Shown here: positions 21,991 through 35,471 of the stretch, in pieces
How the letters are laid out: each line of letters opens with the position of its first letter
Numbering within the stretch: the stretch's first letter is position 1
The notes under the pieces: model-generated
Told to the model about the DNA's origin: nothing
Databases searched by the model: none
What the model saw: only the letters and a program-made list of their open reading frames with translations
Assembly (NCBI RefSeq): GCF_013488225.1
Contig: NZ_CP041238.1
Coordinates: 3,569,501-3,633,500 of the forward strand
DNA from: Sinorhizobium mexicanum
GTDB lineage: Bacteria; Pseudomonadota; Alphaproteobacteria; Rhizobiales; Rhizobiaceae
Length of the DNA stretch: 64,000 nucleotides
Direction: 5' to 3'
Program-made: the position numbers and the translations under genes

Positions 21991-24918
21991 TCACCAGCCG
22001 TCGTCCAGCACCCGCTCCAGCATCTCGGCAAAAAAGTCGGCGCTTTCGCGGCTGAGGCAGAGCGGCGGCTTGATCTTCAATACGTTCAGGTGATCGCCGG
22101 TCGGCTGCATGATGACCCCGAGTTCAAGGAGGCGGTCGCAGATCGCCGCCGTCTCCTGCGTCGCCGGCTCGAGCGTTTCGCGGTCGCGAACGAACTCGAC
22201 GCCGAGATAAAGCCCCATGCCGTGGACCGCTCCGACCATCGGAAAGCGCTCGCCAAGCGCCTGCAGCCGCACCTTGAGGTGGTCGCCGACCGTGCGGGCA
22301 TTCTCCTGCAGGGCCTCGTCGTGGAGAATGTCGAGCACGGTGAGGCCGACGACGGAGCTTACCGGACTGCCGCCGGCGGACGAGAAGAAGTAGCCTTCCT
22401 TTTCCAGCGCCTCCGCAATCTCGCGCCGCGTGATGACTGCGCCGAGCGGATGGCCGTTGCCCATGCCCTTGGCGACCGTGATGATGTCCGGAACGACGCG
22501 CTGCTCCTCGAAGCCCCAGAAGTGATGGCCAAGGCGGCCGTAACCAACCTGCACTTCGTCGGCGATGCAGACGCCGCCTCTTGCCCTGACCGTGGCATAG
22601 ACGGCCTGGAGATATCCGGGCGGCAACGGGATGCCGCCCGCGTTTCCATAGACCGCTTCGCAGATGAAGCCCGCAAGGCCCTCCCGGCGCTGGTCGAGCT
22701 CCTCCAGTTTCTCGCTAACGGCGCGAACATAGTCGACGGTCGAGCCTTCTCCGCGAAACGCGCCGCGATAGGTGTTCGGGGATATGACCGCGTGTACCCA
22801 GTCGGGCCGCGTCGTCAACGCTTGCGGGTTGTCGGCGATCGAGGTTGAGACCGCATCGCTCGCGACCGTCCAGCCGTGATACGCTTCAAGCAGCGAGAGC
22901 ATGTGACGCGCGCCGGAATAGGCCCAGGCGAGGCGGATCGCGAGGTCATTCGCCTCCGAGCCGCTGTTAACGAGAAAGACCGTGTCGAGTCCCTCGGGAG
23001 CCAGCCCAGCGAGTCGCTCCGAAAATTCCGCCACGGATGCATAGTGGAAGCGCGAATTGGTGTTGAGAAGCGACCATTGCCGCCCAACCGCCGCCGAAAG
23101 GCGCGGATGGCCGTGGCCTACGATCGTGACATTGTTGACCATGTCGAGATAGGCACGGCCCTCGACATCGAAGAGATGTTCCTTCCAGCCCCGCTCGATC
23201 TGTGGCGGCTGCCGGTAGTAGTTTTTCTGCGGCCGCGCGAAATGCCGTTGCCGGCGCTGAAGCAGTTCGCCCGCCGCCGGCAAGGGCGCGTCACAATCGA
23301 AGCCGAGCATTTGCGCGGGCGACGGGCAGAGCGCCCGCCAGGCTTCCGCCTGGCCCGCGGTCGCAAAGGGCGGCGGGTCGATCTCCGCTTCCGTCGAGAG
23401 TTGCACGCGGATGAAGCGCAACGCTGACGGATCGCCGGGAACGATGCCGATCGACGCTCCGGTTTCAATCGCGCCTTCGGAGGGATCGGCCGGTTCGACG
23501 CCGTTGAGATGGAGATGTAGTCCGTCGGTCGACAGGACCAGCTTTTCTCCGCGCCGCCCGAGATTACCCGCAAACGGCGCATGGACAGCCGTTTGCCCGT
23601 GCACGCAGAGATCGACGTGCAGAGCGAAGGTCGCAGGCGACCTTGCCTGGAGAAGCCGCGTTTCGGTCAAACGGAATTCGCCGTAGCGCGTGGCGGAAGC
23701 CCCGGCCGCCCGCGCTGCCGACTGCAAGAGCAGCGCTTCCGTATCCTCATAATGCCAGCGGTCGGCCGGAAGATGAGCCCCGAGGAGAGAAAGATCGACG
23801 ATACCGACGCGGGCGGGGTCGACGTCCGGCAGCAGGCGGCCGGCCGTCAACGGCACGGTCACAGCCACCCCTTTCCCCACGACCCGGTGGATCGCGTGTT
23901 CCATCAGGCCGAAAGGTACGGAGAGCGCGGCATCGAGGATTTCACGCTCGTGGGCAGCATTTCCACGCACATAGGCGTTGTCGGGATCGATCTCCAGCTG
24001 CTGTTCGGTACTTGCGACCAGGATGCCCGCCCGTGCCACGATGAGCGGCCAGAGCGCCTTCAGCTCGACATCCGTCAGCGGGCATGCCGCGTGGAATGCC
24101 TGGACCGCCGGCAGAATGACGAAAGGGTCACCGTCGGCGTGGTGAAGGAGCGACGCACATGTGACTGCCAGCTCGGCGACAAGCCATCCCTTGAGCACGT
24201 CACCAAAGTCGATCACGCCCCCGGGCACAAGCCTGCCGTCTGGCTCCGCGCTGCTCACGACATTGTCGTCTGTGATGTCCTGATGAATAGCCTGAACCCG
24301 CAACTCGGGCATGAGCGGCTGCACGCGCCGCATGGCGGCGACCATTGCCTCGGCGACGCGCTTGCGCAAATCCACGTCGGTCATGGTCGACAGCAGGTGC
24401 AGTGCAACCGGTCCCGCCCGTTGCAGGTCCCATTGCAGTTCGCGCTCGAGCCCGGGATGATCGAAGCCTTCAAGCGCCGAAGCCAGCCGTCCGGCAAGAT
24501 CTCCAAGCTCGGCCACCGTTTGCGCCGGAAGATGCTTGCGGCGGGTCAAAGGCGTGCCATCGAGATAGGTGAGCAGCCGGAACTGATAGGGCACGTCGCG
24601 GACGGTGGCGACGACGATCTCCCCGCCATTCAGCGACGAAACGACGGCCGGCACTTCCGGAGCGCCCGGCGCGACGCCAAGATGATGGAGCGCCGCATTC
24701 TGCGCCTCGAGTTCGACCCGCGCATATTCCATCCGGCAGATTTTCAGGACGAAACGGCCGTCATCCGTATCGACACGGTAGTTTCGATCCTGCTGGCTTC
24801 CAAGCTCGGTCAGCGCGCCGGAAAGATCATACTCATCCGATAGAACGCGTTTCGCCTCCTCGGCGGAGACATCCGGCCTTGCAAGCTGCGTGCGGAGCTT
24901 GAGCGTTTCTCCGTCCAT
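21991..24918 (-). CDS. Kinase / M23-like / class III aminotransferase fusion
   Basis: This 975-residue three-part protein has an aminoglycoside-phosphotransferase-type kinase at about 1-330 (AIHQDITDDNVV with the catalytic Asp, then VIDFGDV). A middle region resembles the M23 peptidase fold (HVDLCVHGQTAVHAPFAGNLG, HLHLNGVEP). A class III PLP-dependent domain covers about 545-975 (VNSGSEANDLAIRLA, ADEVQVGYGRLG, and the PLP-Lys motif ITVAKGMGNGHPLG). In animals the kinase and PLP parts are separate enzymes that phosphorylate ethanolamine or hydroxylysine and then eliminate phosphate, so a phosphorylate-then-lyase reaction is plausible. Start ATG 24918 follows GGAATGGA. It lies 31 bases after the HutC-type regulator. 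Confidence 0.85.
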   Translation of the reverse strand: MDGETLKLRTQLARPDVSAEEAKRVLSDEYDLSGALTELGSQQDRNYRVDTDDGRFVLKICRMEYARVELEAQNAALHHLGVAPGAPEVPAVVSSLNGGEIVVATVRDVPYQFRLLTYLDGTPLTRRKHLPAQTVAELGDLAGRLASALEGFDHPGLERELQWDLQRAGPVALHLLSTMTDVDLRKRVAEAMVAAMRRVQPLMPELRVQAIHQDITDDNVVSSAEPDGRLVPGGVIDFGDVLKGWLVAELAVTCASLLHHADGDPFVILPAVQAFHAACPLTDVELKALWPLIVARAGILVASTEQQLEIDPDNAYVRGNAAHEREILDAALSVPFGLMEHAIHRVVGKGVAVTVPLTAGRLLPDVDPARVGIVDLSLLGAHLPADRWHYEDTEALLLQSAARAAGASATRYGEFRLTETRLLQARSPATFALHVDLCVHGQTAVHAPFAGNLGRRGEKLVLSTDGLHLHLNGVEPADPSEGAIETGASIGIVPGDPSALRFIRVQLSTEAEIDPPPFATAGQAEAWRALCPSPAQMLGFDCDAPLPAAGELLQRRQRHFARPQKNYYRQPPQIERGWKEHLFDVEGRAYLDMVNNVTIVGHGHPRLSAAVGRQWSLLNTNSRFHYASVAEFSERLAGLAPEGLDTVFLVNSGSEANDLAIRLAWAYSGARHMLSLLEAYHGWTVASDAVSTSIADNPQALTTRPDWVHAVISPNTYRGAFRGEGSTVDYVRAVSEKLEELDQRREGLAGFICEAVYGNAGGIPLPPGYLQAVYATVRARGGVCIADEVQVGYGRLGHHFWGFEEQRVVPDIITVAKGMGNGHPLGAVITRREIAEALEKEGYFFSSAGGSPVSSVVGLTVLDILHDEALQENARTVGDHLKVRLQALGERFPMVGAVHGMGLYLGVEFVRDRETLEPATQETAAICDRLLELGVIMQPTGDHLNVLKIKPPLCLSRESADFFAEMLERVLDDGW

Positions 24919-24949
24919 CGTTCCATTCCCGTTTATTCGCGGGATCGCC

Positions 24950-25693
24950 TCACTGCGAGACGCCCTCAAGGCGATAGCGCGTGCCTGGATAAAGCAGCCG
25001 CGCGGTCGTGACGCTCGCCGTTTCCGACCAGGTCCGGCGGCGGATCATCAGGCACGGCTCGTTGCGGCCGATCGCGAGAAGCTTGCATTCCCAGGCTTTG
25101 GGCAACACCGCCTCGACGATCTGCTCGGTGCGGGTGATCGGCGCCACCAGGGTCAGATAGGCGTTCGGGGTCATGGCGCTGAAATCCTGCGCCACGTAAT
25201 TGGGGCAGACCGCCGGGTTGACGAACCGATCCTCGATCTGGATCGGCACCTCATCCTCGCAATGGACCATGATCGAATGGAACACCCTTGCGCCCGTCGG
25301 AAGCCCGAGCGCATCGCCGATCTCGGGGCTCGCCGGCTCCTCCTGCAAAAGGGTCAGCCGGGAGGTGTGACGATGGCCACGCGCGCGGATCTCGTCCGCG
25401 ATGTTGCGGACCTCGAGGAGCGCCGTGCTGCCCTTGTGGGCCGCCACAAAGGATCCGACTCCCTGCACCCGGGTGATCGCGCCCTCGCTCGCAAGCTCGC
25501 GCAGGGCCCTGTTCGCAGTCATCCGGCTGACGCCGAGATCCGCGACGATGTCGTTTTCCGACGGTATCCGGTGATTGGTGGGCCATTCGCCGCTCTCGAT
25601 CCGGCTGCGAATGAACTGTTTGACTGCCTCATAGCGCGGCACTGGCCCTGGCGCGAAGGTCGCCCTGTCATCCCTCCACCCCGGTGCCGTCAT
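24950..25693 (-). CDS. hutC: GntR/HutC-type (UTRA) transcriptional regulator
   Basis: This 247-residue GntR-family regulator has the N-terminal winged helix (PRYEAVKQFIRSRIESGEW, then ENDIVADLGVSRMTANRALRELASEGAITRVQGVGSFVA). A UTRA effector domain follows (IADEIRARGHRHTS, ARVFHSIMVH, YLTLVAPITRTEQIVEAVLP). Close resemblance to histidine-utilisation repressor HutC, and divergence from hutF, support that name; HutC normally binds urocanate. Start ATG 25693 follows GGGAGTAGGTG; a GTG one codon earlier is less likely. It is co-directional with the kinase-aminotransferase fusion, which it may also repress. Confidence 0.87.
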   Translation of the reverse strand: MTAPGWRDDRATFAPGPVPRYEAVKQFIRSRIESGEWPTNHRIPSENDIVADLGVSRMTANRALRELASEGAITRVQGVGSFVAAHKGSTALLEVRNIADEIRARGHRHTSRLTLLQEEPASPEIGDALGLPTGARVFHSIMVHCEDEVPIQIEDRFVNPAVCPNYVAQDFSAMTPNAYLTLVAPITRTEQIVEAVLPKAWECKLLAIGRNEPCLMIRRRTWSETASVTTARLLYPGTRYRLEGVSQ

Positions 25694-28168: not shown

Positions 28169-28474
28169 CTAGCGTCCCGTGCCTGCGGATTTGGAGCCAC
28201 TTTGCGATTGCCCTTTTCCAGGTCCGCCCCGAGAGGTGCCCCCGCCGTGAGAACTGCCGGGATTTGTACCGTCCGGGCCGTTGCCCCAACCGTTGTCGCG
28301 GTGCGCCTTACCGCCGCCGCCCGATTTGGCAATCGCGTTCGACGTCAGGCTTGTCGACAGTAACATCGTGACCGCCGGCGGTGTCACCACGGCGAAGCGG
28401 CCGCAGCTTTTCAGGAATTCGCGCCGATCTTCTTCACTCCGCGACGGCAGCCCGTCTGGCATCTCAGTACTCAT
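28169..28474 (-). CDS. Small Tat-exported Gly-rich protein (101 aa)
   Basis: The N-terminus has a twin-arginine signal: DRREFLKSCG with the two Arg at 17-18, a hydrophobic stretch and a likely AIA cleavage site at 47-49. The remaining 52 residues are Gly/Ser-rich with one ordered motif, RDNGWGNGPDGTNPGSSHGG (60-78 area), and no Cys. AAGGGAAGG lies 5 nt before ATG 28474 and a TTGGCT-N17-TATAAG promoter is upstream. It is the third minus-strand gene after the RRE-kinase and the nucleotidyltransferase. It could be the substrate they modify. I know no function for it. Confidence 0.78.
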   Translation of the reverse strand: MSTEMPDGLPSRSEEDRREFLKSCGRFAVVTPPAVTMLLSTSLTSNAIAKSGGGGKAHRDNGWGNGPDGTNPGSSHGGGTSRGGPGKGQSQSGSKSAGTGR

Positions 28475-28554
28475 GAATGCCTTCCCTTCATATGGCCGAG
28501 CTTCGAACGAACGCCGTAAGTCCGGAGAAATAATAGAAAAAGTTGCCGTTTTTA

Positions 28555-28583
28555 CTTATACAATACTGGAGCAAACAAGCCAA
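28555..28583 (-). promoter_or_regulatory. Promoter of the Tat Gly-rich gene
   Basis: On the minus strand TTGGCT (28583-28578), 17 bases, TATAAG (28560-28555). The surrounding 100 bases are much richer in A+T than the neighbourhood. Predicted start near 28548 gives a leader of about 75 nt. Confidence 0.5.
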
Positions 28584-28672
28584 TTAACTATAAGAGATTA
28601 TATCGTTGGATAGGGGTACCTTCCCTCACGCGGCGAAGGGCCAGGGATTTCCTCACGCGCCTTCCGCGTGTT

Positions 28673-29764
28673 TCATGCCTTGCCCGGTGGTATCGGGCGG
28701 AAAATACGCCGCAATTCGCGAGCCTTACGCTTTAGCTCCTGCCATCGCGAGGCGTGTGGCTCGCCTCCGAAACGATCCCAGGACGGATAGTGGAGCAATT
28801 CCGTCAGAAGTGTCAGAAATGTAAATGGTCCACGAAGATATCCTCGCTCCAGTTGAATTTTCCTTCGAGAAAGTTGAAGGTTCGGCAATATGCCGGAAGG
28901 CTCGGCAAGGTCACTGGATATATTGAAAAGTATACTTGCCGTCAGAATTTGCGTATCTATCGCATGTCTTTCATATCCCGGTGCGAACAGGGATCTTAAC
29001 GCCTCCCACCGCATCTCCTCTGTGGATCGCGCGAGGTTTGCTATATCGAGGAGATGGCGCACGTCCACCAGGCCTCGCCAGTAGTCCCCATCCTGAAATT
29101 GATCGTGCAGCATCAGGTAGACAATCTGGGCAAACGGCGAAGGGACATAGACATGAGCGCCATCAAGCGTCATCCGGCTGCCGTTGCGATATACCCACTC
29201 GATGTCGCTGAAGGCGGCCGGCCCCTTTGGACGGCATTGGAGGTCGATGCTGCCCGCATCTTCAGGACGAGCGAGCACGACGGGTAGGCGAAACTTTGGA
29301 TTTCCAGGCCAGGAGCCCGCGCCGGCGTCCTCGCGGATGACATAGCCAATACTTTGCAGTGCGCCAATGGCCCTGGGCATATCAGCGGGGCGAACGAAGA
29401 TATCCAGATCGGTAAGCATCCGCGCACCGATCTCGCTCTGTCTCTGCGCCAGCAGAATAGCGGCGCCCTTCATGGCGACCGGTTCGATGCCAATGCCATT
29501 CAGGCAACCTATCGCTTCCTCCAGTTGTGAATTCAGCCTTGTATTGCGCTGAGCGTTTCGCCGGTAGATCTCCGCGAGATATGCCTGAACCTCCTCAGGG
29601 ATGTCTTCGGGGCGCGCATATCTGCCCATCGCCGCGGCGAGCGACGAAATCGTCATGCTTTTATTTGCCAGTCCTATGACGGCATCCCAGTCGACGTCGC
29701 TGGGAACGCAGCCGTCCAGGCAGGAAGCGAGCGCGAGGAGATCCCTGTAGCTATCCCTCTTCAT
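28673..29764 (-). CDS. Nucleotidyltransferase family protein (NTP_transf_5)
   Basis: This 363-residue protein has the NTP_transf_5 core: EPVAMKGAAILLAQ (MKG at 98-100), then ARMLTDLDIFVRP with paired acidic residues DLD at 119-121, and SIDLQCRPKG as the third acid site. LHDQFQDGDYWRGLVDVRHLLDIANLA follows. Family members appear beside PqqD-like and HprK-like proteins in peptide and polysaccharide clusters, but the transferred nucleotide and target are not known. Its start overlaps the kinase stop by 14 bases, so the two are coupled. The C-terminus is Arg/Lys-rich. Confidence 0.83.
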   Translation of the reverse strand: MKRDSYRDLLALASCLDGCVPSDVDWDAVIGLANKSMTISSLAAAMGRYARPEDIPEEVQAYLAEIYRRNAQRNTRLNSQLEEAIGCLNGIGIEPVAMKGAAILLAQRQSEIGARMLTDLDIFVRPADMPRAIGALQSIGYVIREDAGAGSWPGNPKFRLPVVLARPEDAGSIDLQCRPKGPAAFSDIEWVYRNGSRMTLDGAHVYVPSPFAQIVYLMLHDQFQDGDYWRGLVDVRHLLDIANLARSTEEMRWEALRSLFAPGYERHAIDTQILTASILFNISSDLAEPSGILPNLQLSRRKIQLERGYLRGPFTFLTLLTELLHYPSWDRFGGEPHASRWQELKRKARELRRIFRPIPPGKA

Positions 29765-30854
29765 GATATCGGCTCAGGATCGCGACGGCCTCATCGAGCC
29801 GTGAAAAAGTAAGCTCGACCAATCGAGCGCCGGAAACGGCTGTCAGCAGGCTCTCGAACTGCATCACGTCCAAACGTCGCTCTGAAGTGAACGCCCCCGA
29901 GAGCAATTCAGAAAGCGCCTGCACCGGCTCGACTGCCGAAATCACCGCCGGTCCTTCTTTCCGACGCCGGATAAGCACGATCATGTGCAGCGGAACATGT
30001 TCGCGCGGCGCATATCGAACCGGCGCCAAGTATCGGACTCTCTTGTTGTCGAGGCGACGGTGAACAGGGCAGGCGATGATCGCGTCGCGAAGGCCGTCCA
30101 GGAGATCCCACGACCCGGATTTGAGCGCGGGCGCAAAGGGTACGCCGCGCATTAGGCCCCTTCCATCCATCAAGGCGATGTCGTCCCCGCCGCAATCAAA
30201 GCCCGCTGCGACAAGTGCCAGGGCAAGAGTAGTCTTTCCCGCACCGGGAGCGCCACAGATCAACAGGCTGCGCGCGTTTTTCACGAGAAGCGCCCCGTGC
30301 AGCGCGACATCGGTGCCGACCGCCCCCAAGGCATCTTCCGTCAGAAATCCCTTCAATGCCGGAACCGCTTCGGCGCTGGTCACGATCATACCGCGCGAGC
30401 CATTCCTGCGAATGCAACCGCAGTCGCCGAACCTTGCCACGTCGTAGGCAAGAGCAGCCTGTGCGCCGGGCCTTGCCAGATGATCGAAAACAGGCAGGAA
30501 GAGATCGCGAACACTTCGATCGTAATATGCAATCGCGGCAGCTGTCGTTGCGAGATCAAGCACATGGGTATGAATAGGCTGTCCGTCATTCTCATCGAGA
30601 ACAACGTCCAGCAACCCCTGACGCGACCAGGACCGGAGATATTTTTTCACGAAAGCGTTGGCGGGACCACGGGCCAAACCACGCCCCACCAGATCGGATA
30701 CCATTTCCTGAAACGACAGCGCTTCGACGAGGTTGCACGTCAAATACGCCGTCAGGTCATCGACTTCAAAAATCTGTTGCGCCGGTTCAACGAAAATCGT
30801 CTTGCGTTGCCCAAGCAGAAAAAATCGTGCGCCGTCAGAGACGCGGAACTTCAT
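29751..30854 (-). CDS. PqqD/RRE-like domain fused to HprK-like kinase
   Basis: Residues 10-85 look like a PqqD-type RiPP recognition element (RFFLLGQRKTIFVEPAQQIFEVDDLTAYLT, then VSDLVGRGLAR and VKKYLRSWSRQGLLDV). Residues 175-365 form an HPr-kinase-like P-loop domain with Walker A GAPGAGKTTLAL at 201-212, DCGGDDIALMDGRG and PFAPALKSGSWDLLDGL. HprK homologues in lasso-peptide clusters phosphorylate a precursor's C-terminal residue. No PTS context or HPr is nearby. A good ribosome site (AAGGGGG) precedes ATG 30854. It is the first gene of the three-gene locus. The RRE assignment is by eye and should be tested by profile search. Confidence 0.78.
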   Translation of the reverse strand: MKFRVSDGARFFLLGQRKTIFVEPAQQIFEVDDLTAYLTCNLVEALSFQEMVSDLVGRGLARGPANAFVKKYLRSWSRQGLLDVVLDENDGQPIHTHVLDLATTAAAIAYYDRSVRDLFLPVFDHLARPGAQAALAYDVARFGDCGCIRRNGSRGMIVTSAEAVPALKGFLTEDALGAVGTDVALHGALLVKNARSLLICGAPGAGKTTLALALVAAGFDCGGDDIALMDGRGLMRGVPFAPALKSGSWDLLDGLRDAIIACPVHRRLDNKRVRYLAPVRYAPREHVPLHMIVLIRRRKEGPAVISAVEPVQALSELLSGAFTSERRLDVMQFESLLTAVSGARLVELTFSRLDEAVAILSRYHEEG

Positions 30855-31083: not shown

Positions 31084-31180
31084 ACAGCATGATTCCTCAA
31101 GTCGGCATCGACTTCAGGAATCATGCAGCGATTCAAAGTGCAGCGGCCTTTGCGCGTCTCGGGAGACGCGCGGCGCTGTG
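31084..31180 (-). repeat. RIME-type element, copy 6 (inverted)
   Basis: ATGATTCCTCAAGTCGGCATCG, CTTCAGGAATCATGCAGCG, ATTCAAAGTGCAGCGGCC and GCGCGTCTCGGGAGACGCGC are the usual blocks in reverse. It occupies the kinase upstream region. Confidence 0.75.
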
Positions 31181-31215
31181 GGACGTCTCGGTGTAGTCGA
31201 AGAAACGGTGCTACG

Positions 31216-31521
31216 ATGCCCCAACAAGACAGAAAACGTCGTGCCGCCCAGATTCCCTCCGGTAGTTGGCCACCTCGCATGATGGCTGAGATGGCGGCCG
31301 GCTACGTTGGAGAAAAGCACGTCGAGGACTTCCTCGAGCGTATCGGGAAAGGCTACCCGCAGCCACGTGTGGTCGAGGGACCAAGGCGCAAGTTCTGGTA
31401 CAAGGACGACTTAGACAAGGCCATGAACATGGCTCTACCCAGCGCGCCGCGGCTGGTCGACAAATTCCAGGCGAAAATGGCGGAACGCAGGGCCGCCCGG
31501 CGAGCCCGCGTCAAAGCTTGA
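31216..31521 (+). CDS. Small AlpA/excisionase-like DNA-binding protein
   Basis: From ATG 31216 this basic 101-residue protein reads MPQQDRKRRAAQIPSGSWPP, then MAEMAAGYVGEKHVEDFLERIGKG, YPQPRVVEGPRRKFWYKDDLDKAM and an Arg/Ala-rich tail. The pattern (degenerate helix-turn-helix, then P.P and a W-x-x-DLD-x-A helix) is like AlpA/Xis-type phage regulators. No phage structural gene lies nearby. A longer reading would start inside the RIME and is unlikely. It is convergent with a small exported ORF with an 11-base overlap. Confidence 0.55.
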   Translation: MPQQDRKRRAAQIPSGSWPPRMMAEMAAGYVGEKHVEDFLERIGKGYPQPRVVEGPRRKFWYKDDLDKAMNMALPSAPRLVDKFQAKMAERRAARRARVKA

Positions 31522-34724: not shown

Positions 34725-35471
34725 TCAGATCAGTTTCATCCGCATCGCCCGGGCGATCGCCTGCATGCGGTTGACGGCATCGAGTTTGCGGGTCGCGCTC
34801 TTGAAATAGCTGCTGACGGTGTAGGCGGAAATGCCGAGGATGATGGCAATCTCGTCGCTGCTCTTGCCGGCCGCCGCCCAGCGCAGGCACTCGATCTCGC
34901 GGCCGGACAGTTTTTCACGGACCGTGCTGCCCGCATCAAAGGTACGCTCGAGGCACTCGAAAAGCTGCACCAGTGTCAGGTAGAGCACCGCACGTTCGGC
35001 ACCGACCGGCTCGTCCCGAGCGCCCGAAAGCATGACCACGAACGGTTCCCCATAGGTCGTATGCAAGAGCAAGGCAAAATGACGCGCCATGTCGGAATCG
35101 GCCTGGAGCTGGCGGACAGACATTTCCCCTCCGTCCCCGCGTGCCGCGTCCAGAAGCTCGGCGCCACCTGCAAGCGGCAACTTCGTCTGGCGCAGGCGCT
35201 CGACAAGGACGCTCGCGTGAAACGCCCCGGAGACATCGTACTGGCGAACCAGCTCGGCCGGCCAATTGCTGAGCACCAGGCTTTCGGAAAACCGCTGCTG
35301 TTCGGCGAGCGGCAGCCGCGCGATCAGGAAGCGTTGAAAGCGATAGCGCGCGATCAATCTGCGCATCAGGTGCAGAAGCTCGTATTCCGTGCGCACCGAC
35401 GCCGGATCGAATTCGAAAGACATGTCCTCGTCAGCCTCGCGCCGCAAGGTCGGCTCACTCGATTCCTTCAT
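34725..35471 (-). CDS. Orphan LuxR-family transcriptional regulator
   Basis: This 248-residue protein has a variable N-terminal domain (about 1-170, reminiscent of an autoinducer-binding fold but without its full set of conserved residues that I can identify) and a C-terminal LuxR HTH: LSGREIECLRWAAAGKSSDE, IAIILGISAYTVSSYFKSATRKLDAVNR. No luxI-type synthase is nearby. Rhizobia carry several such orphans affecting motility and exopolysaccharide. Start ATG 35471 has AAGG 1 nt upstream; MSFEFD (35423) is an alternative. Signal unknown. Confidence 0.85.
   Translation of the reverse strand: MKESSEPTLRREADEDMSFEFDPASVRTEYELLHLMRRLIARYRFQRFLIARLPLAEQQRFSESLVLSNWPAELVRQYDVSGAFHASVLVERLRQTKLPLAGGAELLDAARGDGGEMSVRQLQADSDMARHFALLLHTTYGEPFVVMLSGARDEPVGAERAVLYLTLVQLFECLERTFDAGSTVREKLSGREIECLRWAAAGKSSDEIAIILGISAYTVSSYFKSATRKLDAVNRMQAIARAMRMKLI

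Follow-up and report, generated by a model that had tools for sequence, protein, structure and literature searches.

What is the substrate of a kinase and a nucleotidyltransferase whose genes lie next to that of a small, apparently exported protein? This question is raised by a locus of Sinorhizobium mexicanum, for which we analyzed a window of 64,000 nucleotides within the 7.1-Mb genome. Three genes follow one another on the minus strand: a 367-amino-acid (aa) kinase-like open reading frame (ORF; 29751..30854), a 363-aa ORF of the NTP_transf_5 nucleotidyltransferase fold (28673..29764), which shares 14 bases with the kinase ORF, and, across a 198-bp gap, a 101-aa mini-protein with a twin-arginine translocation (Tat) leader (28169..28474), the proposed substrate. 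We consider it likely that this trio is a system resembling those of ribosomally synthesized and posttranslationally modified peptides (RiPPs), which would modify the mini-protein and then export it.

The N-terminal region of the kinase (residues 1-87; 30594..30854) matched RRE/PqqD profiles and the structures of known RREs of the PqqD/B1 type. The C-terminal domain (residues 181-367; 29754..30314) was an HprK-like core, carrying H186, G201, G204, G206, K207, T208, D224, and D225; the spacing of this H-G-G-G-K-S/T-D-D series equals that of BsfK. The PqqD/RRE-like region proposed in the sequence-only reading of this DNA was thus recovered, and its overall observation of a kinase with an RRE-like domain, a nucleotidyltransferase, and a small Tat protein is confirmed. 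The nucleotidyltransferase matched PF14907 (E 5.7e-31), and K99, G100, R115, D119, D121, and H220 were invariant in an alignment of 24 rows. No sequence relative was detected in the PDB at E up to 0.1; a predicted model had a pLDDT of 86. Its best functional precedent is PsmN, as described in the available text of the review PMC9266682: PsmK phosphorylates a Ser, after which PsmN is required for hexose installation on that Ser, and nucleotidylation followed by the action of a host glycosyltransferase is there considered a possible alternative for the PsmN route.

The mini-protein belongs to no Pfam or NCBIfam family; ten relatives likewise gave no Pfam match at E up to 0.1, and the NCBIfam matches of 3 of the 10 were far below cut-off. 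Its leader (residues 1-49; 28328..28474), read by eye, comprises a twin-arginine motif (RREFLK), a hydrophobic stretch (TPPAVTMLL), and a cleavage-like AxA site (AIA). Relative to five relatives, dN/dS of the whole gene was well below 1 (for example, dN 0.092 and dS 0.656 against L023). The leader half was the more constrained: over residues 1-50, dN/dS ranged from 0 to 0.05 in four pairs (the fifth, with L024, was not computable), and all leader differences from L021 (9/9) and L022 (8/8) were synonymous. Among 26 mini-proteins, 19 encoded away from a kinase (one of them from another genus, in G910) and 7 beside one, mean identity was 89% over the 33 residues from the twin arginine and 46% over the remainder.

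Within this leader-core pattern, one residue was constant. Sixty-six curated mini-proteins were sorted, after their sequences had been viewed, into four groups by leader and core, and the window type forms group I (25 mini-proteins). A Ser 18 residues after a conserved Pro, two residues past the AxA site and flanked by variable residues, was found in 52/52 distinct group I mini-proteins, a count that comprises those matching a leader regular expression and omits one of 20 fetched stretches with no matching ORF (L268) and the distant mini-proteins of G406, G619, and G694. In the window, the leader carries FAVVTPPAVTMLL and this residue is Ser51 (28322..28324), a candidate phosphorylation site. 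A P-x-hydrophobic-x-x-[LIM] segment followed the twin arginine in 62 of the 66 curated mini-proteins (with groups II and III merged as "II" in this count); of the 43 other Tat-like leaders that served as controls, three had it, of which two (L133 and L176) are themselves mini-proteins. The core motif NGWGNGPDGTNPGSS (28250..28294) has similar counterparts in other genera, for example in the mini-protein of L115. Core types include NNGWGNGxDxxNPGSSHG and GKGGKGGNNGKGK; the former type was also seen outside the genus, as NNGYGNGPRDGVPGKSW in L147, NNGFGNGGGDGAPGRSGSN in L149, and NNGFGNGGGDGVPGNSGNN in L150.

Across genomes, the mini-protein and the kinase were found together. In the genus of the window, 21 of 33 genomes bore the kinase, and exactly the same 21 bore the mini-protein (Fisher test, 2.8e-9). 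Of 50 mini-protein rows at ≥60 bits in these genomes, 27 had a kinase gene no more than 5 kb away on their contig and 23 had none. These 23 were spread over 11 genomes, all kinase bearing, and linkage alone is therefore insufficient to account for the co-occurrence. Some could reflect contig breaks; three each were found in G003, G015, and G016, assemblies of 7, 4, and 3 contigs. Among 80 genomes of a second genus (that of G226), mini-proteins were present in 17/17 with a strong kinase match and in none of 61 of the other 63, the two exceptions being an intact mini-protein in G910 and a fragment with stops in G931. At the level of the order, 11 of 12 mini-protein-bearing genomes had a kinase at ≥60 bits, rows below 60 bits, which resemble generic P-loops, having been removed before counting. 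In the class, the mini-protein profile matched 12 of 385 genomes. Since only six (order) or five (class) first-look candidates per genome were scored in the kinase searches, absence of a kinase at these levels is weak evidence. The sequence-only reading had staked its proposal on the three genes recurring together in relatives, and co-occurrence of the genes in related genomes was observed. In S. terangae (L025 11094-12165 / L011), tblastn split the nucleotidyltransferase match into two segments (residues 1-115 and 125-363), so that this copy is diverged or disrupted; the sole mini-protein match found lay upstream on the opposite strand.

The association was also visible as adjacency. A rule defined a small Tat-like ORF by a twin Arg, a hydrophobic 13-mer, a short remainder, and coding bias, and such ORFs were sought within 800 bp of the kinase/nucleotidyltransferase block. 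One was found at 47 of 65 kinase loci (8/8 in the genus, 39/57 elsewhere), whereas the match frequency at distances beyond 2 kb would predict 3.1 (54 matches in the 101.5 kb of near sequence, 16 in the 520 kb of far sequence). The count of 47 is to be read as a description with an internal control in the far regions and not as a blind test, because the rule postdates the reading of the loci. Applied unchanged to 17 loci fetched afterwards from a sample of the phylum (16 from beyond the class, one from the same order), a blind test, the rule found 10 (12 with looser filters). Gene order and strand varied by lineage while the link was kept: nucleotidyltransferase, kinase, and minus-strand mini-protein in L103 and L105, but a mini-protein gene transcribed divergently from that of the kinase at L099 and L100. 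No recurrent fourth partner was detected, no Pfam family occurring more than three times among 97 of 144 called neighbor proteins (best 25 of 149 families); the recurring unit is therefore the kinase, the nucleotidyltransferase, and the Tat protein.

This neighborhood bears on an alternative in which the kinase and nucleotidyltransferase decorate a cell-surface polysaccharide or its precursor with phosphate or sugar-phosphate, the mini-protein serving as periplasmic partner or carrier. A few loci do adjoin bacterial sugar transferases or glycosyltransferases (3 of the 97 neighbor proteins each), and the nucleotidyltransferase model weakly resembles FKRP (E 0.18), a ribitol-phosphate transferase. 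However, no neighbor family exceeded 3/97, so that genes for polysaccharides do not accompany the trio regularly; the RRE argues for a peptide substrate, and the mini-proteins are variable in the core but constant in the leader. We regard this alternative as unlikely.

Several observations weigh against modification of the mini-protein by its neighbors. Two definitions followed inspection of the data: the adjacency rule was written once small ORFs at those 65 loci had been read, and the P-x-hydrophobic motif after the mini-proteins had been seen. No near match by rule was found in 18 of the 65 kinase loci or in 7 of the 17 later ones; some matches looked spurious on reading (L102, L151, L169, and L186), and the wrong ORF was chosen for L097, while five likely mini-proteins were missed (L113, L147, L156, L165, and L180). 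The Fisher tests ignore shared ancestry. Group I mini-proteins were lacking in 8 of 19 order-level kinase genomes and in both genomes of the second genus with weak kinase matches (G886 and G913), and the published RRE motif with its [Y/W]xxP start occurred in 0/25 mini-proteins of group I, the window's own. Conversely, no kinase match accompanied the two more distantly related mini-like ORFs of G619, a genome that is 83% complete, and intact mini-proteins were found in G910, G441, and G449 with no kinase detected: a profile search gave none at E 1e-10 in G441 and G449, and two protein queries gave at best a 20-bit match in G441, spanning a P-loop stretch, and nothing in G449 or G910.

These last three genomes argue for a second alternative, in which the mini-protein has a function of its own (for example, as a metal-binding periplasmic protein) and the kinase and nucleotidyltransferase are accessory or act only in some lineages. 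Their mini-proteins (L215 of G441, L216 of G449, and L271 of G910) are intact group I members of the same leader and core kind with the invariant Ser, and L215 and L216 are solo genes among unrelated neighbors. Yet such exceptions are few when one genus shows perfect co-occurrence and another 17/17, and two of the three assemblies, drafts in 90 and 350 contigs, could be missing a gene; we regard this alternative, too, as unlikely. A regulatory or toxin-antitoxin pair, in which a MenT/TglT-like nucleotidyltransferase is held in check by the kinase and the mini-protein is an unrelated neighbor, could be argued from the best fold match of the nucleotidyltransferase model, MenT1 (8an5, E 1.2e-4), with TglT lower in the list, but the fold is common to other nucleotidyltransferases such as ANT(2'')-Ia, also matched, the kinase is an HprK core with an RRE, and co-occurrence with unlinked mini-proteins would go unexplained, making this very improbable.

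Action of the kinase and nucleotidyltransferase on the Tat protein is the best explanation because of the genome-wide co-occurrence, which includes mini-proteins unlinked to a kinase. The suggestion of the sequence-only reading that the trio modifies a small protein, perhaps the Tat substrate itself, is supported to this extent, while the modification as such is something we infer. In the cytoplasm, the RRE at the N terminus of the kinase would bind the mini-protein leader; the probable contact is the conserved Pro-x-hydrophobic segment, which lies within the hydrophobic stretch of the Tat signal. Using an NTP, the HprK-like domain of the same polypeptide would then phosphorylate the mini-protein. 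The most likely acceptor is the invariant Ser51, two residues past the predicted signal peptidase site, and the NTP_transf_5 protein could add a second group to the phosphate, whether a sugar, a nucleotide, or a sugar or polyol phosphate. Finally, the Tat translocase would export the modified mini-protein and an ordinary signal peptidase would cut off the leader, so that no dedicated peptidase or ABC exporter would be needed. Because cargo of the Tat pathway crosses the membrane folded or after modification, such an order, with cytoplasmic modification ahead of export, would fit. Each of these steps, like any biological role of the product, is put forward from sequence and its comparison.

The closest published parallel is the linear polyphosphorylated peptides (LPPs), as described in the available text of PMC13381572. 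The lpp cluster of Paenibacillus alginolyticus encodes the RRE LppB, the HprK-like kinase LppK, the NTP transferase LppN, and a linear precursor. LppK phosphorylates only core Ser3, just after the leader, for which Thr or Tyr does not substitute, and LppS, a signal peptidase I homologue, removes the leader with help from the RRE; the authors consider LPPs restricted to Bacillota. Common to LPP clusters and the trio are an RRE, an HprK-like kinase, an NTP transferase (for the window, a family-level match through PF14907), and a short precursor with a conserved N terminus and variable C terminus, with no cyclase; the phosphorylated Ser just after the LPP leader also resembles candidate Ser51. 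In contrast to the discrete LPP RRE, that of the window is fused to the kinase. The dedicated SpI-like peptidase and MsbA-like transporter of the LPP cluster were neither among the five window neighbors scanned nor recurrent among the neighbors of relatives, the search having been confined to such neighbors and not extended to the rest of the genome; given the Tat-like leader and the predicted cleavage by an ordinary signal peptidase, Tat and signal peptidase may replace LppS and the transporter. The LPP leader YxxPxVLxHQxIxFETxxS also differs from the window leader, and the window system departs further in its Tat-like leader, in substrates sometimes encoded far from the enzymes, and in its host phylum, Pseudomonadota.

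Two other systems share parts with the trio. In the lasso peptides paeninodin, pseudomycoidin, and Bsf, as far as covered by the consulted text of PMC9266682 and PMC10368454, an HprK-like kinase occurs, a nucleotidyltransferase follows the kinase (pseudomycoidin), and an RRE assists the kinase, BsfB1 strongly stimulating BsfK (PMC10368454). Unlike these, the trio has a proposed substrate with a Tat leader, and its neighborhood showed no macrolactam synthetase, B2 peptidase, or ABC transporter. A lasso cluster was rejected, as no Asn synthase homologue or B2 was found among the five scanned neighbors or recurrently in relatives; an Asn_synthase match near the trio was the HUP domain of MnmA and not a lasso cyclase. 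The second system, HPr-rel-A of NCBIfam, pairs a related kinase (TIGR04352) with a PqqD-type chaperone (PqqD_rel_X, TIGR04353). The window kinase scored 65.5 bits (E 3.9e-18) against TIGR04352, below the 200-bit cut-off, and is not a standard member. TIGR04353 was absent among the 25 NCBIfam matches listed for the kinase and matched neither the nucleotidyltransferase nor the mini-protein. All three tested kinases above the cut-off (L158, L228, and L238) also adjoined a nucleotidyltransferase and a Tat-leader protein, and L238 encodes the chaperone (821-1171; 66.5 bits versus a cut-off of 35). The window differs in its fused RRE and in its short Gly-rich mini-protein, versus a Tat protein of 177-188 aa with SCWxS.

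The trio therefore lies outside LPP, lasso, and HPr-rel-A systems as defined, yet appears to operate in a similar way. Its earlier description as not a standard RiPP cluster holds for the five window neighbors scanned, which include no cyclase, peptidase, or transporter. Its description as an undescribed system is partly overtaken: LPP RiPPs of Bacillota with the same logic were published in May 2026 (PMC13381572), and a related kinase/PqqD pair has a name in NCBIfam, although the titles of those models name no substrate. A search of the open-access literature, with subscription papers and preprints outside its scope, recognized no paper on an HprK-like kinase and nucleotidyltransferase with Tat-leader precursors, nor one on a Tat signal as RRE leader, a role that we consider somewhat more probable than not.

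Similar gene sets were present in other Pseudomonadota, with substrates of other groups. Group II included three mini-proteins beside divergent kinases with (A/N)GHSGC ends (L106 9554-9820, L110 9036-9281, and L111 7902-8216); this conserved end, with its Ser and Cys, is perhaps another modification site. In group III (12 proteins), the published RRE motif [Y/W]xxPx[L/V/I/A/F/Y] (PMC13381572) occurred in 12/12, as YxxPxL in nine, and a discrete PqqD-like ORF followed the kinase in three of four loci read by eye (L166, L171, and L178, not seen in L179). Group IV comprised 22 proteins of 75-241 aa, including those beside the three kinases that pass the TIGR04352 cut-off. SCWxS occurred in 14 (L157, L158, L160, L165, L228, L230, L231, L232, L233, L234, L236, L238, L241, and L242), all beside HprK-type kinases, and lay near the C terminus in those of the phylum sample; the Tat proteins of L158, L165, L230, L234, and L238 had no NCBIfam match. 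We lean slightly toward a RiPP-like class spread across Pseudomonadota, in which the Tat signal peptide doubles as the RRE leader, cytoplasmic HprK-like kinases and NTP_transf_5 proteins decorate small proteins before Tat export, and the window trio and HPr-rel-A would be branches whose adjacent Tat protein is the substrate. Its exported proteins would be Gly-rich, Ser/Pro-rich, GHSGC ended, or SCWxS bearing. If true, substrates would be named for widespread orphan kinase/nucleotidyltransferase pairs, HPr-rel-A included; Tat export would be explained by a need for cytoplasmic modification of the cargo, and one peptide signal would serve two machines, Tat and the RRE. The proposal is testable, since it turns on single genes and on one Ser residue.

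Two further observations concern trio genes. A second copy of the trio, about 30% identical, occurs in some Sinorhizobium genomes and adjoins a polysaccharide sugar-transferase gene (L033 and L035), an adjacency also reported for LPP clusters in Bacilli. Contig C61 of G406 encodes tandem related mini-proteins with Cys-rich cores (e.g., CEPCSTCTPCD; L196/L202/L206), and the same genome has a kinase and nucleotidyltransferase (L152).

The named genomes with the closest kinase relatives are Sinorhizobium and Ensifer. A promoter scan of the window gave no support to the earlier claim that the mini-protein gene has its own promoter; a TTGGCT-N17-TATAAG pair spotted by eye upstream fails the scan rule and is not evidence. 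In a Pfam scan of five window neighbors, hutF and hutD were found on one side of the trio and, on the opposite side, mnmA and a gene for a LuxR-type regulator; the fifth ORF (31123-31521) had no Pfam match. The LuxR-type regulator (34725-35471), beside mnmA, has a weak autoinducer-binding domain. Farther away, a 992-aa ORF (21991-24969) appears by eye to be a fusion of an aminoglycoside phosphotransferase-type kinase and a class III aminotransferase.

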